In this document: positions 38,388-45,314 of the stretch, piece by piece
Numbering within the stretch: the first letter of the stretch is position 1
Layout: each line of letters begins with the position of its first letter
NCBI GenBank assembly: GCA_030745755.1
Contig: JASLOA010000009.1
Span: 1 to 64,000, forward strand
Reading direction: 5' to 3'
Origin: Kiritimatiellia bacterium
Lineage (GTDB): Bacteria; Verrucomicrobiota; Kiritimatiellia; UBA8416; JABMPJ01
DNA length: 64,000 nucleotides
Notes under the pieces: generated by a model
Database searches by the model: none
What the model saw: only the letters and a program-made list of their open reading frames with translations
What the model was told of the DNA's origin: nothing
Translations under genes and position numbers: made by a program

Positions 38388-39809
38388 CTATTCAAACCGC
38401 AGTAGCGCGTACCAGGAATAGCGCTGACTCTTGATGCGCAGGAGCACACGGCCACGCTCGGCAGCTTCGGCCAATGCTTCGCTGAACGCCTCGATGGTTG
38501 TGACCGGCTCGCGGTTGACGCTCAGGATCAGATGTCCGGGCTGTATCTCAGCCTGGGCGGCGGCACTGTAGGGCTCCACCTCGGCCACCAGCACACCCTC
38601 GCCCATCTCATGGCCAAAACGCTCGGCCAGCTCCGGCGACAGTTCTCGCACCGCCAGACCGAGTTTTTTGGACACCTCAACTGCCTTCTTCTGAGCCGCT
38701 TCATCGCCCGGAAGCACGCCGATAGTCACTTTCACCATTTTGACCGCGCCGTCACGGAAGATCTTCAGCTTGATCTCCTTGCCGGGTGCAGTCAGAGCCA
38801 CCCGGTTACGAAACGTACGGTTGTCCTCCACATCATTGCCGTCCATCTCGAGAATAATATCCCCGGCTTCCAACCCGGCCTCTTCGGCCGGACTGTCCTC
38901 GACTATCCCCGCCACCAGGACGCCGCCTGCCTCGTCCAGACCAAACGACTCGGCCAGTTCTTGATCCATTTCCTGGCGATTGAGCTGGATACCAAGGAAT
39001 CCGCGCGTCACTTCTCCGCTGGCCACAAGCTGGTCCTTGATCACGATGGCCAGGTCGATCGGAATAGCGAACCCGATGCCCATGTAGCCGCCGCTCTGGC
39101 TGTAGATCGCGGTGTTGATTCCCACGACCTTACCGTCGATGTTGAGGAGCGGGCCCCCGGAGTTGCCCGGGTTGATCGCCGCATCGGTCTGGATGAAGTC
39201 TTCATACTCGGCAATGCCGATGTTGTTGCGTCCGATGGCACTGACCACACCGACGGTCAGGGTTTCGGAGAGCCCGAAGGGGTTGCCCACCGCAATAACC
39301 CACTCTCCCATCTCGAGCGAGGCGGAGTCGCCCGCCTCAAGAATGGGCAGGTCTCCTTCCGCGTCTATCTTGATGACCGCCACCTCGGATTTCGGGTCCG
39401 TTCCAACCCGCTCCGCCTCGAACTCGCGTCCGTCATTGAGTTTCACCGTGATCTTGTCGGCATCTCCCACGACATGGTTGTTCGTCAGGATATAGCCATC
39501 CTTGGTGATGATGAAACCGGAGCCCTGTCCCTGCAAAAGCTGCTGACGCGGCCGGCGAGGTTGGGGAATACCGAAGAATCCAAACGGGTCGTTGTATTGA
39601 AAGCCGGGTTGCTGCGTCTGGACGGTTTTTTCAACCGTAATGAACACCACCGCAGGAACGGCCTTCTTCGCCACACGCGAAAATGCCCGGCTGGTCTGTT
39701 TCAGAACCGCCACCTCGGCATCGCCATCCCCGACCTCTTTCGCACCTGTCGTCGGCAGCATTCCAGCCGCTATAACCCCAATAGCCAGTACACGAAGCAT
39801 CTTCTTCAT
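38388..39809 (-). CDS. Deg/HtrA-family periplasmic serine protease
   Basis: A 473-residue protease and chaperone of the periplasm. A signal peptide (about residues 1-23) is followed by the trypsin-like domain with His in TNNHVVG, Asp in SEVAVIKID and Ser in NPGNSGGPL, then two PDZ domains (about 270-360 and 380-470). DegP/DegQ proteins refold or degrade misfolded envelope proteins. The ATG at 39809 follows AGGA and starts the signal peptide. The uvrC gene lies 52 bases downstream on the same strand. Upstream, divergently, is the phosphotransferase fusion. Confidence 0.92.
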   Translation of the reverse strand: MKKMLRVLAIGVIAAGMLPTTGAKEVGDGDAEVAVLKQTSRAFSRVAKKAVPAVVFITVEKTVQTQQPGFQYNDPFGFFGIPQPRRPRQQLLQGQGSGFIITKDGYILTNNHVVGDADKITVKLNDGREFEAERVGTDPKSEVAVIKIDAEGDLPILEAGDSASLEMGEWVIAVGNPFGLSETLTVGVVSAIGRNNIGIAEYEDFIQTDAAINPGNSGGPLLNIDGKVVGINTAIYSQSGGYMGIGFAIPIDLAIVIKDQLVASGEVTRGFLGIQLNRQEMDQELAESFGLDEAGGVLVAGIVEDSPAEEAGLEAGDIILEMDGNDVEDNRTFRNRVALTAPGKEIKLKIFRDGAVKMVKVTIGVLPGDEAAQKKAVEVSKKLGLAVRELSPELAERFGHEMGEGVLVAEVEPYSAAAQAEIQPGHLILSVNREPVTTIEAFSEALAEAAERGRVLLRIKSQRYSWYALLRFE

Positions 39810-39939
39810 CTCAATTCCTCCACAATCACAGCAACTCGAAGAGGCAAAGATATTGCCAAACCCTGCAGGATTGGACAAGCTCCAGCCTACCCACAAGTGT
39901 CCGCCCAGGCAACGAAGGCGAGAGAGAGGATATGACGCC

Positions 39940-42390
39940 ATGACAGAACAATTCCAAGGCGATAAGAAGAAGGGACAGTCACTGCTGTATGGCGTAGAGA
40001 CCAAGTTCAAGAACTGGCTGCTGCCAATGGTTCCGGAGCGGGTTGAGACCTATCATCTGACACTCACCACTGTTGCGTGGAGTCTACTCTTGATCTTCTT
40101 TGCTTTCCTCGCCAGGACGGATATCCGTTGGCTGTGGGGCGCTTCGTTCATGATCGTTCTGCAGTATGTCACGGACTTGCTCGACGGGGCCATTGGACGC
40201 CAGCGTGATACAGGCCTCATCAAGTGGGGCTATTACATGGATCACCTGCTGGACTACCTCTTTCTCTGTGCCATTCTGATCGGGTACGCGCTGCTGGTTC
40301 AGGATCAGCACAAGTTCATGCTTTTCTTCATCCTGGCGCTATTTGGCGCCTTCATGGTCAATTCCTTTCTCGCGTTCGCGGCCACAAACGAGTTCCAGAT
40401 TTCCTACATGGGAATCGGTCCTACCGAGATACGGCTCGTCTTTATTGCCATCAACACCGTCATCATTCTGCTCCATGGCAATACCCACCTTGAAGCGGCA
40501 CTACCTTACGTGCTCTGGTTCTCTTTGTTCGGTCTGTTTGTCACCGTCTACCGCACCCAGGAACATATCTGGGACCTGGATATGAAGAACAAGTACGGCG
40601 AAGAAGCCATGCTCAAGGCGAGGACGAGGGATCGCTCCGTCTTGGAACAGAAATGGACGCTCTATCTCTCCTGGCGCAAAGTGGTACGCAACCTCGTGCT
40701 GAGCTTCCTGATTGCGTTTGTGGCACTGACGGTCCTCATGATGCGTGTCGCGGCACCTTATCACCGGTTGCTGGCGGGAGCGCTTTATCTCGCGAGCTGG
40801 ATTCCTTTCGTGCGCTCATTCAAAGACCGGCTAGCCCTGCTCCGGCGCCGTGGCCGACAGGTTAAGGGCATCATTCGTCCCCACCTGCCATATGTGTTGG
40901 TTGGACTCGCCCTGATTGTGGCAGCCTACGTGGCTCATGCACTCGCACCCATACACGATTCTCAGTTGATCAGCATGACTGAGAAGGATCTGAAGGACGA
41001 ACTTCAGACCGACCTTCACAACCTGGAGGTCCTGAGCGGAAGCATGGGCTCACTGATCGGGTGGACCCAGTCCGAAGGTCTGCTTTCGCGCCCCGTTAAT
41101 GACCTGTCGGCCGAAGACAAACAGAACGTGAGAGATGCCTGGCTCCAATTCGCAGACCTGTCCCTTGAACTGGACATTCTTAAGAGCAAGTACAAGGGGT
41201 TCTACCAGGTTGATCAACTTTCCCGGCGCACACTTCATGCCGAGGCTTTCTTTGTCCAGTTTGCAGCATTCGTTACACAGTATCGCACTACGCTCAAACT
41301 GGTGAGCGCCGTTGAAGAGAGCGACTTTATGAACACATTGCTGGACGAGCCCCTCTCCGCGCACGGGATTCCTGCCAACAGCTACTCCGCTATCAAGCAG
41401 CGCCTGACCAACCCACAGGTCATGATCCGTCTCAACGCATGGGCCTGCTATTTTCCCCTGATTCGAAAAGATGTTTCACAGCGTCAAGACCTTGTAGATC
41501 GGGTCGCCGGCAGTATCGAAGACATCTACCTGACTATAGGAAAGAAGCCATCCATTCTGGTCAGCAACCCGCGCGACCTCTTTGAGAAACGAGCGTTTGC
41601 CGCATGGTTCCCTTTCCAGCGCGAAATCGCACTGCACATGGGCAGAGTTCGCGTGGAAACGCATAGCTACCGAATCCGGCCCGAGCACATCTCCGAGCTT
41701 CTGCCACCCCTGCAGCCGGGTGACATCATCTTTGAGCGCCGCAACTGGAAGATGTCCAATGCGGGCATTCCCGGTTTCTGGCCACACGTTGCTCTGCATG
41801 TCGGTACTCCTGCCGAGTTTGACGCGTTCTTCACATCACTGCCCATGCTCGACAATCAGTCACCGATGGAGTACATCCGGCAGAACTTCGCCCACGTCCA
41901 CGCCGCTATGTCCACCCAAGATGCCAACGGCTACGAACACGCCATCATCGAGGCCCTGGAGCCCGGCATCATATTCACCTCTCGAGAAGAGAGCCTGCAT
42001 GCCGACTACGTCGGCATCATCAGACCGCGACTCACAAAGGAGCAGATCTTCAAGGCGCTGTTGAATGCCTTTGAGCACCACGGGAAACCGTACGATTTCA
42101 ATTTCGACTTCGCCACCGACACCAAGCTGGTCTGCTCGGAACTGGTCTACAAGGCCTTCGGCGACATGCAAGGGATCACGCTGAAACCGGCCACCCTGAA
42201 CGGGCGCCTCCTGATGAAACCCAACTTTCTGGCCGAGAAGTTCGACCGGGAGTATGGAACCAACCGGCAAGAGTTCGATTTTGTCTGCTTCCTCGACTCC
42301 AGCGAGAAGACCGGCGAGGTCATGTTGCGTGATGCGGCCGCTTTTGCAGAAAGTTGGAAGCGTCCCAAGTGGGACATTCTCATGGACTGA
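39940..42390 (+). CDS. CDP-alcohol phosphotransferase fused to YiiX-like papain-fold hydrolase
   Basis: An 816-residue fusion. Residues 40-230 are a multi-helix CDP-alcohol phosphotransferase domain with its full metal motif: Asp79, Asp82-Gly83, Arg87, Gly97, Asp101 and Asp105. These enzymes swap CMP on a CDP-lipid for another alcohol. Two further membrane segments follow near 245-305, then an unassigned helical region. The last 200 residues match the permuted NlpC/P60 (YiiX-like) fold: LQPGDIIFERR, WPHVALHVG with His616, and LVCSELVYKAF with Cys732. Related folds include lipid acyltransferases and amidases. AGGA stands before ATG 39940. The combined function is unknown. Confidence 0.85.
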   Translation: MTEQFQGDKKKGQSLLYGVETKFKNWLLPMVPERVETYHLTLTTVAWSLLLIFFAFLARTDIRWLWGASFMIVLQYVTDLLDGAIGRQRDTGLIKWGYYMDHLLDYLFLCAILIGYALLVQDQHKFMLFFILALFGAFMVNSFLAFAATNEFQISYMGIGPTEIRLVFIAINTVIILLHGNTHLEAALPYVLWFSLFGLFVTVYRTQEHIWDLDMKNKYGEEAMLKARTRDRSVLEQKWTLYLSWRKVVRNLVLSFLIAFVALTVLMMRVAAPYHRLLAGALYLASWIPFVRSFKDRLALLRRRGRQVKGIIRPHLPYVLVGLALIVAAYVAHALAPIHDSQLISMTEKDLKDELQTDLHNLEVLSGSMGSLIGWTQSEGLLSRPVNDLSAEDKQNVRDAWLQFADLSLELDILKSKYKGFYQVDQLSRRTLHAEAFFVQFAAFVTQYRTTLKLVSAVEESDFMNTLLDEPLSAHGIPANSYSAIKQRLTNPQVMIRLNAWACYFPLIRKDVSQRQDLVDRVAGSIEDIYLTIGKKPSILVSNPRDLFEKRAFAAWFPFQREIALHMGRVRVETHSYRIRPEHISELLPPLQPGDIIFERRNWKMSNAGIPGFWPHVALHVGTPAEFDAFFTSLPMLDNQSPMEYIRQNFAHVHAAMSTQDANGYEHAIIEALEPGIIFTSREESLHADYVGIIRPRLTKEQIFKALLNAFEHHGKPYDFNFDFATDTKLVCSELVYKAFGDMQGITLKPATLNGRLLMKPNFLAEKFDREYGTNRQEFDFVCFLDSSEKTGEVMLRDAAAFAESWKRPKWDILMD

Positions 42391-43359: not shown

Positions 43360-44319
43360 CTAGGTCGTCGTCAGGGCGGTCAGCTTCTCAGTCCATTGGG
43401 TCATATCTTCGGGCAGCGGGGCCTCAAAGACAAGGGTTTCGTTGCTCCGCGGATGTTGAATGGTCAACTTGCGGGCATGGAGCAACTGGCGCTCCGGCGT
43501 GCCGAGGTCGGCCAGGGGCTTGTTGCGGCCGTAGAGCGGATCGCCGAGGACGGGGTGCCCGATATGCGACATGTGGACGCGAATCTGGTGAGTGCGTCCG
43601 GTCTCGATTCGCACTGCAACCTGGGCGGCGAGATCGCCGAACCGGTCCACGACCTCGTAGCTCGTGATTGCCTTGCGTCCGCGCGGCGGCTGGGCCGACA
43701 TCTTCTTGCGGTCGTGACGGCTGCGCCCGATCAGTGTTTCGATTCGCCGACGCGCGGGCCTGGGGACCCCACGCACGATCGCCGCATACTCTTTCTCTAC
43801 CGACCCGGTCTTGAACTGGTTGACCAGCGCCTGCACCGCGGCATCGTTCTTGGCCACCACCATGACCCCGCTCGTATCCTTATCGAGCCGGTGTACGATA
43901 CCGGGGCGCAGCTCGCCCCCCACACCGGCAAGGTCCTTGCAATGATGCAGCAACGCATTCACCAGCGTGCCGGTCCAGTTGCCTACGGCCGGATGCACAA
44001 CCAGGCCGGCGGGTTTGTTAACCACAACCAGGTCTCCGTCCTCGTAGAGGATGTCTAGCGGGATATCCTCGGCACACAGCTCCACAGGGTCGGCCGGCGG
44101 ACAGGTGACCGAGACCACAGCCCCGGCACGCGTGGGGGAATGGGGGCGTACGTTGGCACCATCCACGCATACATGGCCCTTCTTGATCAGGCCCTGCAAC
44201 CGCGAGCGGGAGTAGTCGGGTAGCTGGGCATGTAACCACGTATCCAGGCGCTGGCCGGCATCATCGGGTCCGACCGTGAGTTTGCACACCGTGTCCATGG
44301 GCTGATCGCTTGCACTCAT
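43360..44319 (-). CDS. rluD: Ribosomal large-subunit pseudouridine synthase, RluD type
   Basis: A 319-residue enzyme that turns uridines of 23S rRNA to pseudouridine. An S4-like RNA-binding domain spans residues 15-75, then the catalytic domain has HRLDKDTSGVMV with the nucleophile Asp, and GRTHQIRVHM toward the end. RluD homologues act on the helix 69 loop; RluA or RluC specificity cannot be excluded. The start at 44319 overlaps the TGA of lgt (ATGA). This lgt-rluD order occurs in several phyla. Confidence 0.9.
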   Translation of the reverse strand: MSASDQPMDTVCKLTVGPDDAGQRLDTWLHAQLPDYSRSRLQGLIKKGHVCVDGANVRPHSPTRAGAVVSVTCPPADPVELCAEDIPLDILYEDGDLVVVNKPAGLVVHPAVGNWTGTLVNALLHHCKDLAGVGGELRPGIVHRLDKDTSGVMVVAKNDAAVQALVNQFKTGSVEKEYAAIVRGVPRPARRRIETLIGRSRHDRKKMSAQPPRGRKAITSYEVVDRFGDLAAQVAVRIETGRTHQIRVHMSHIGHPVLGDPLYGRNKPLADLGTPERQLLHARKLTIQHPRSNETLVFEAPLPEDMTQWTEKLTALTTT

Positions 44320-45122
44320 GCCGACACCTGCTTCCCGGTATCGCGCTTCCGGAGCAGCCACCAGACACCCCACCCCACAGCGAAGAGTGCGATACTGACC
44401 CACTGTGCAACCGAAAGCCCAACCCAACGCACACGGTGGTCGCCGCGCAAGAACTCAAGCGCGAAGCGGCCAATCGAATAGAACAGCAAATAAGCCACGC
44501 CCACCATCCCGGCACGGTGCTTGGATCGCCACACCAGCAACAGCACGCCGAAGAGGATCAGGTTGAAGGCCGATTCGTAGAGTTGCACCGCGTGTACGGG
44601 AAGGCTCTGCACAGCATCGTGGGCGAGCAGATGGCTCATCTGGTGCTCAACATACACCGAGCTGCCCCTGGGATAATGCACGCCGCAAGCCAATGGGGTT
44701 CCATAGCAGCACCCGTGCATGAAACAGCCAACCCGACCAAATGCATGGGCGAGCGGGAGTGATGTGACCACGAAATCGGCCAGCTCAAGGAAAGGGGTCT
44801 GGATTGATCGCGCGAAGAGAGTGAGCGCCAGCCAGGCGCCAAGGAATCCACCGAAGAAGATCAGTCCGCCTTCATCAACACGCACGATGCGCCATGGGTT
44901 TGCCAGGAAATAGGAGAGGTCGGACAACACATAGGCCACCCGTGCACCCAGGATGCCGGCCAGCATGATCCAGAAAAGCAGGTCGGAACAGAACTTGAAG
45001 TCGCGCCCGATCTTGCGTCCGAGGAACGTCCAGTTGGCCAGGCCCGCCAGAAAGCCGAGCGCCATCATGATCCCGTACCAGTACACGGGGCGCGGTCCAA
45101 TCGAGAAAGCTTCCGACATCAT
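44316..45122 (-). CDS. lgt: Prolipoprotein diacylglyceryl transferase, Cys-variant
   Basis: Lgt moves diacylglycerol from phosphatidylglycerol to the lipobox Cys. The 268-residue protein has seven helices and the signature region reads HAFGRVGCFMHGCCYG. In E. coli the corresponding GRIANFINGE contains Asn and Glu that matter for activity; here both are Cys. The C-terminal FALEFLRGDHR retains the conserved Glu and Arg. This variant occurs in other bacteria and the gene feeds lipoproteins such as the hydrolase at 5439. ATG 45122 has AGGGAC before it; the frame extends ten codons further upstream. Overlaps rluD by four bases. Confidence 0.85.
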   Translation of the reverse strand: MMSEAFSIGPRPVYWYGIMMALGFLAGLANWTFLGRKIGRDFKFCSDLLFWIMLAGILGARVAYVLSDLSYFLANPWRIVRVDEGGLIFFGGFLGAWLALTLFARSIQTPFLELADFVVTSLPLAHAFGRVGCFMHGCCYGTPLACGVHYPRGSSVYVEHQMSHLLAHDAVQSLPVHAVQLYESAFNLILFGVLLLVWRSKHRAGMVGVAYLLFYSIGRFALEFLRGDHRVRWVGLSVAQWVSIALFAVGWGVWWLLRKRDTGKQVSA

Positions 45123-45314
45123 GAGAAAGGTCCCTGGCCCGCCCTGCCACACAGAAACGCATGGACATCAACATCTGTCTGTGGCTATCCTGAACTTAAC
45201 TGTCCATTTGACGAGAGAAATAGAACCTACCGCGCGAGTGAGGCCTTGGCAACCCTTTCCGAGATGAGCCGTCAACTGCTTCGCCGCAGGTTGGTCTGTT
45301 GATGAACCCATACC

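Follow-up and report, generated by a model that had tools for sequence, protein, structure and literature searches.

CDP-alcohol phosphotransferases (CDP-APs) have active sites that face the cytosol (PMC6506517, PMC10182977), and those using lipid acceptors carry 3-4 extra transmembrane (TM) helices at the C-terminus (PMC4634129). In CHPT1, D3 is followed by His and G2 by Glu, and a strand at the N-terminus pairs with the TM4-5 loop, features that set this enzyme apart (PMC10182977). YiiX and other permuted NlpC/P60 enzymes act on acyl lipids by binding or cleaving them (PMC3142127; PMC12994826; PMC7387801). The YiiX-type site is defined by a His before the Cys, together with a polar third residue and a Tyr, and the YiiX pocket held a bound fatty acid (PMC3142127); the permuted relative Tox-Act1 is a periplasmic phospholipase (PMC12994826), and LnsA is required for lipoprotein N-acylation (PMC7387801), with Lnb, a DUF4105 protein, belonging to the same superfamily as LnsA (PMC12994826). 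Here, we describe a gene that joins a CDP-AP to a YiiX-like (C92) domain, found in a stretch of 64,000 nucleotides from a Kiritimatiellia bacterium (hereafter, the window). In the open-access literature, no paper was found that contains both CDP-alcohol phosphatidyltransferase and YiiX, or that links both Pfam names, and the domain architecture is, to our knowledge of that literature, new. As for its function, which we infer, our preferred reading, held tentatively and at slightly less than even chances, is a two-faced inner-membrane enzyme, in which a cytosolic phospholipid builder would carry a periplasmic acyl-thioester enzyme.

The gene is a single uninterrupted frame of 816 codons, running on the + strand from an ATG at 39940 to a stop codon ending at 42390 with zero internal stops (Table 1). 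Despite an alternative in-frame ATG upstream at 39640, which would give a protein of 916 aa, we take 39940 as the correct start because all homologues begin at the F-x-GDKK signature adjoining it. Pfam places CDP-OH_P_transf (PF01066) at residues 42-187 (36.4 bits against a cut-off of 22, E 8.7e-9) and Peptidase_C92 (PF05708) at residues 591-779 (65.9 bits against a cut-off of 27, E 6.1e-18), with no match between them, and the AF2 model of the full fusion has a mean pLDDT of 88.4 and a pTM of 0.69, at which the positions of the domains relative to one another are tentative. The original prediction, a continuous 816-residue frame joining a CDP-AP to a YiiX-like domain, is thus borne out by the frame, Pfam and the homologues, and the residues it had named (Asp79, Asp82, Arg87, Asp101, Asp105, His616 and Cys732) all lie at those positions. 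It had also raised the concern that the join might be an assembly artefact. Every fused copy does come from a metagenome-assembled genome (MAG), but five such copies, in separate MAGs of different studies, align end to end and no internal stop interrupts the frame, and an artefact or a misread frame is hardly conceivable. Upstream, a gene on the opposite strand (38388-40010, -), judged by eye from its translation to encode a divergent HtrA/DegP-like protease, has its start region facing the fusion gene, and 2 kb downstream lies an lgt-like gene (44316-45152, -; prolipoprotein diacylglyceryl transferase), likewise assigned by eye and from the translation only.

Table 1. Regions of the fusion gene, with their positions in the window and the evidence for each.
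Feature	Position	Strand	Evidence
Whole fusion gene, 816 aa	39940..42390	+	Pfam matches; five full-length fused copies
Residues 1-222: CHPT/CEPT-like CDP-AP with six TM helices	39940..40605	+	Pfam, alignment of 41 relatives, hhalign, Foldseek
Residues 1-222, signatures: N-terminal F-x-GDKK-x-G strand; D79-x2-D82-G-x2-G-R87...G97-x3-D101-H102-x2-D105; GPTExR	39940..40605	+	
Residues 223-247: variable linker, the gene split point in relatives	40606..40680	+	Low pLDDT, split genes
Residues 248-339: three additional TM helices, Lys/Arg-rich loop preceding the last	40681..40956	+	Model; loop charge
Residues 340-585: conserved domain, all-helical and predicted to be periplasmic	40957..41694	+	29 homologues; isolated model
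Residues 586-816: permuted NlpC/P60 (C92, YiiX-like) domain; His616, Glu671, Tyr718, Cys732; helical insertion 624-657	41695..42390	+	Pfam, conservation, Foldseek to 2if6

The CDP-AP half carries the class I signature of its family (DxxDGxxAR...GxxxDxxxD) apart from Gly86, which stands in for Ala, is invariant throughout the subfamily and turns the motif into DxxDGxxGR. Asp79, Asp82, Asp101 and Asp105 are identical in 57/57 aligned relatives, Gly83 and Gly97 are also invariant, and position 87 is occupied by Arg (52 of the 57) or Lys (5). Both the profile score and the six-TM fold place this half in the family, and its AF2 model matches CDP-AP structures with a Foldseek probability of 1.00, including CEPT1 (8gyw), CHPT1 (8ero/9uet), PgsA1 and AF2299. 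The subfamily to which it belongs comprises ~220 residues, occurs in many phyla (220 confirmed stretches), is recognised by F-x-GDKK, D101-H102 and GPTExR, and is given a name by no NCBIfam model. Most of its members stand alone, and these (L046-L125) share ~50-60% identity across Patescibacteria, Woesearchaeota, Acidobacteria, Desulfobacterota and others, a conservation unusually high for hosts so distant.

The comparison with CHPT1 and CEPT1 (9uet, 8ero, 8gyw) is suggestive of a resemblance. Profile alignment with hhalign to their PDB sequences spans 176 columns (residues 10-191; probability 93.3, E 2.8e-7), the human CHPT1 query being identical to PDB 9uet_A end to end with zero differences. 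The match to AF2299 and DIPPS is shorter, at 114 columns, with a close score (92.9, E 3.7e-7), and the two reference groups align to each other at 66.6 over 65 columns; because the reference profiles hold only four (CHPT1/CEPT1) and two (AF2299/DIPPS) sequences, the difference is suggestive only. Besides the CDP-AP core, the full-length profile match and matches at G-x-SLL and TEI, the half shares with CHPT1/CEPT1 the invariant D-H, His102 being identical in 41/41 relatives. Its AF2 model shows strands near the N-terminus (residues 10-11) and within the TM4-5 loop (residues 152-159), which may or may not pair as in CHPT1. In contrast, the catalytic Glu after G2 is absent and replaced by Tyr98 here and by Phe in relatives, and the core family spans only ~220 aa. 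The fusion also has three extra TM helices beyond the six-TM core, as CHPT1/CEPT1 have additional helices, although equivalence to CHPT1 TM7-10 is not implied, whereas most members of the subfamily have none. The widespread, unnamed subfamily of the CDP-AP half, present in Patescibacteria, Woesearchaeota, Acidobacteria, Desulfobacterota and Kiritimatiellota, resembles eukaryotic CHPT1/CEPT1 and looks like a prokaryotic counterpart of these Kennedy-pathway enzymes.

Phosphatidylinositol-phosphate (PIP) synthase and PgsA1 (6h5a, 5d92), as well as AF2299 and DIPPS (4o6m, 4mnd), share the six-TM fold and the Asp residues that bind metal, and reach similar Foldseek and profile scores. The best NCBIfam matches are in fact to archaetidylinositol phosphate synthase (41/41 members, best E 6e-12) and PIP synthase, which would make the CDP-AP half an enzyme of that kind. 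However, these family scores are very low, falling far from the equivalog cut-offs (40.6 against 180 bits and 29.4 against 170 bits), and the second inositol-phosphate arginine described for such enzymes (PMC4634129) was not identified in this half. An inositol lipid is moreover unlikely because inositol-3-phosphate synthase (PF07994) was found in 0/18 genomes carrying either half, although inositol phosphate might be taken up instead, and we consider a PIP synthase-like activity improbable. Two further identities were rejected. In the other four fusion genomes (G014, G010, G021 and G025), separate CDP-AP genes adjoin Psd, which argues against PssA, and the window's genome has a separate PgsA-like gene, which argues against PgsA. 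Most relatives have the Psd-PssA pair; in the window's genome, neither Psd (PF02666) nor a CDP-AP gene beside Psd was found, which could be due to incompleteness of the MAG (92%).

The C92 half has the order of the YiiX-type site, with His616 identical in 28/28 C92 relatives, Cys732 in 27/28, and Glu671 and Tyr718, assigned from order and conservation, completing it. The YiiX-like fold originally proposed for this part stands, as the model matches YiiX (2if6) with a Foldseek probability of 1.00 and a TMt of 0.54. With YiiX/YaeF (C92; 2if6, 3kw0), it has in common the fold, the His-Glu-Tyr-Cys order and a predicted exported location; unlike them, it shares its chain with a CDP-AP, three TM helices and a helical domain of 250 residues, and its His strand is followed by a 34-residue helical insertion. 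A permuted NlpC/P60 site is also found in LnsA, Lnb (DUF4105) and Tox-Act1, where it lies at the membrane's outer face and acts on acyl lipids or lipoproteins, a location and substrates that are predictions for the present protein; they differ in family and architecture, and here Lnt is present, while neither a secretion system nor an immunity gene was seen. Going by family membership, the chemistry with the most support for the C92 half would be hydrolysis or transfer of acyl groups in the periplasmic leaflet. The link to LnsA (PMC7387801) and Lnb (PMC12994826), of the same superfamily, the predicted periplasmic site and an lgt-like gene 2 kb away could also point to a lipoprotein N-acyltransferase of the LnsA/Lnb kind, for which the CDP-AP would make the acyl donor lipid. 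Against this stand matches to Lnt in the window's genome and the other fusion genomes, and in 330/346 genomes of the class (308 above the curated cut-off). Replacement of Lnt by the C92 half was rejected, being unlikely because Lnt is present in the fusion genomes, and the N-acyltransferase role as a whole appears distinctly unlikely.

The class-wide survey covered 346 Kiritimatiellia genomes, including that of the window (G000). Whole-genome searches found the complete fusion in five genomes, all Kiritimatiellia: that of the window, G014 (68% identity to the window's protein over the full length), G010 (50%), and G021 and G025 (46-47%). All belong to the order of the window's genome, and the source records are Kiritimatiellota/Lentisphaerota MAGs. 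Both halves occur as separate genes, identified by their coordinates, in 20 further genomes of the class, in 19 of which they lie on one contig and the same strand: 15 pairs are at most 250 bp apart (G022, G032, G115, G116, G118, G123, G127, G137, G142, G143, G144, G150, G151, G208, G336), several of these overlapping by 14 bp, and four are separated by ~2.5 kb (G117, G134, G135, G136), while in G140 the halves are on two contigs. Adjacency like that of the split pairs also occurs outside the class, in KSB1 (L066) and 'Pacebacteria' (L089) MAGs. In the tree of the CDP-AP half, in which bootstrap support is not fully settled, the fusions form two separate groups within one clade that also holds split pairs and C92-less forms, from which it follows that the fused state changed more than once. 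The fusion in five genomes and the same-strand synteny in 19 more lend weight to the lipid theme and functional pairing that had been proposed from the window's gene.

The split pairs also show where the middle of the protein, ~300 residues left unassigned in the original prediction, belongs. Separate C92-half proteins start at a position equivalent to ~residue 245-247 of the fusion, and model confidence dips at this site (pLDDT <50 at residues 230-243); as the split always falls near residue 245, the middle is part of the C92 half and consists of a three-TM anchor and a conserved helical domain. The AF2 helices following the six of the CDP-AP span residues 245-268, 275-303 and 305-335, of which the first and last alone are picked out by a hydropathy scan of the fusion, the middle one resting on the model and homologues. 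Modelled alone, residues 340-587 form a confident helical bundle (pLDDT 87, pTM 0.83) with no match in Pfam, PDB sequences or PDB folds. In the fusion as in split homologues, the loop that precedes the last TM helix is rich in Lys and Arg, and by the positive-inside rule the rest of the chain would lie in the periplasm. Among 13 paralogous proteins consisting of middle and C92 domains, nine contain a lipobox and a tenth begins with a sequence like a signal peptide, with L098 likewise; the window's genome itself encodes a second middle+C92 protein (G000:C34; L044:10787-12670, -), a predicted lipoprotein of ~628 aa. From the charge bias and the lipoprotein relatives, the C92 active site is probably periplasmic and that of the CDP-AP cytosolic, that is, on opposite faces of the membrane and not on the same side, an arrangement that had been put forward for structural checking, and any lipid common to both sites must then first cross the membrane. 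This bears on the two-step lipid modification suggested originally, in which a lipid that had received its head group would then undergo acyl or amide chemistry, the two steps being directly coupled. Its domains, catalytic residues, lipid theme and functional link hold, both domains being of lipid-active families and joined by fusion; the simple succession of two steps at one place is not supported, given the predicted opposite faces, the lipid flip that would be needed and the existence of C92-less variants, and we regard direct coupling as quite unlikely.

In the two-faced enzyme that we favour, a nine-TM inner-membrane protein would hold two lipid-type active sites at opposite faces. At the cytosolic face, the CDP-AP domain would use Mg2+ and a CDP-linked donor to produce a phospholipid, a CDP-alcohol and a diacylglycerol-like acceptor being our first guess for its substrates. 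The three extra TM helices would lead the chain across the membrane to the periplasmic helical domain and the C92 thiol enzyme, which would form an acyl-thioester on Cys732, followed by acyl hydrolysis or by transfer from or to a lipid of the periplasmic leaflet. The fusion would hold maker and modifier together, and the flipping of the lipid between them is a step that the model leaves unexplained. Alternatively, the halves may act on different molecules, the CDP-AP making a phospholipid and the C92 half being a periplasmic envelope amidase or peptidase, acting on peptidoglycan or protein, that has no more than a membrane anchor or an expression unit in common with the CDP-AP. C92 ranks among the cysteine peptidase/amidase families, and the C92 half is found where this CDP-AP is absent (G033 and G056) as well as in the form of free lipoproteins, yet the recurrent fusion and tight synteny, and the fact that the characterised permuted NlpC/P60 enzymes considered here have acyl lipids or acylated proteins as substrates (PMC3142127, PMC12994826, PMC7387801), speak against it and leave this reading possible but rather unlikely. 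A more elaborate form of the two-faced enzyme, which we consider unlikely, is a trans-membrane lipid assembly line, in which a Kennedy-type phosphotransferase at the inner leaflet is followed by the three-TM and helical module, which would hand the lipid to a periplasmic remodeller of acyl chains working through an acyl-thioester; if true, it would imply a class of lipids so far undescribed in Kiritimatiellota and related bacteria. The open-access literature yielded no paper on the phospholipid lipidomes of Kiritimatiellota.

Variants of the pair show that the C92 chemistry can in some cases be dispensed with. In L061 (Phycisphaerae) and L085 (labelled Akkermansia), the fusion joins the CDP-AP to the TM and middle regions with no C92 match, and the neighbour of the CDP-AP likewise lacks C92 in L063, L064 and L072. 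In the KSB1 locus (L066:8978-10621), the C92 match is kept, with Ser in place of the catalytic Cys and the Tyr missing, and this partner protein is possibly a pseudo-enzyme. In two related loci of Patescibacteria, C92 is encoded by a small gene of its own on the upstream side, with a 4-bp overlap in L079 and at a distance of ~1.1 kb in L092. The link between the CDP-AP and the TM and middle regions is at least as conserved as C92 activity. Fusion and synteny together tie the poorly understood YiiX/C92 family to phospholipid synthesis, which makes the C92 substrate testable, and they establish a conserved link between two orphan families, whose chemistry we propose by analogy. Records of Pontiella sulfatireligans F21 and of Pontiellaceae B12219/B12227/B1224, which have no MAG label, carry both genes, and the question may therefore be open to experiment.

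When the gene neighbourhoods of the CDP-AP were clustered, no further recurrent partner with an apparent functional link emerged, save a short-chain dehydrogenase in some Magasanikbacteria/Parcubacteria, where the CDP-AP lies near this gene and an HtpX-like gene (L079:8451-11430, L073, L074, L077, L083). The pair in the 'Pacebacteria' MAG (L089) and the CDP-AP+middle fusion in the 'Akkermansia muciniphila' MAG (L085) may be binning errors or transfers. In some Pontiellaceae (L057, L058, L069), the ~2.5 kb intergenic stretch holds a conserved gene of ~452 aa on the opposite strand and one of ~333 aa on the same strand.
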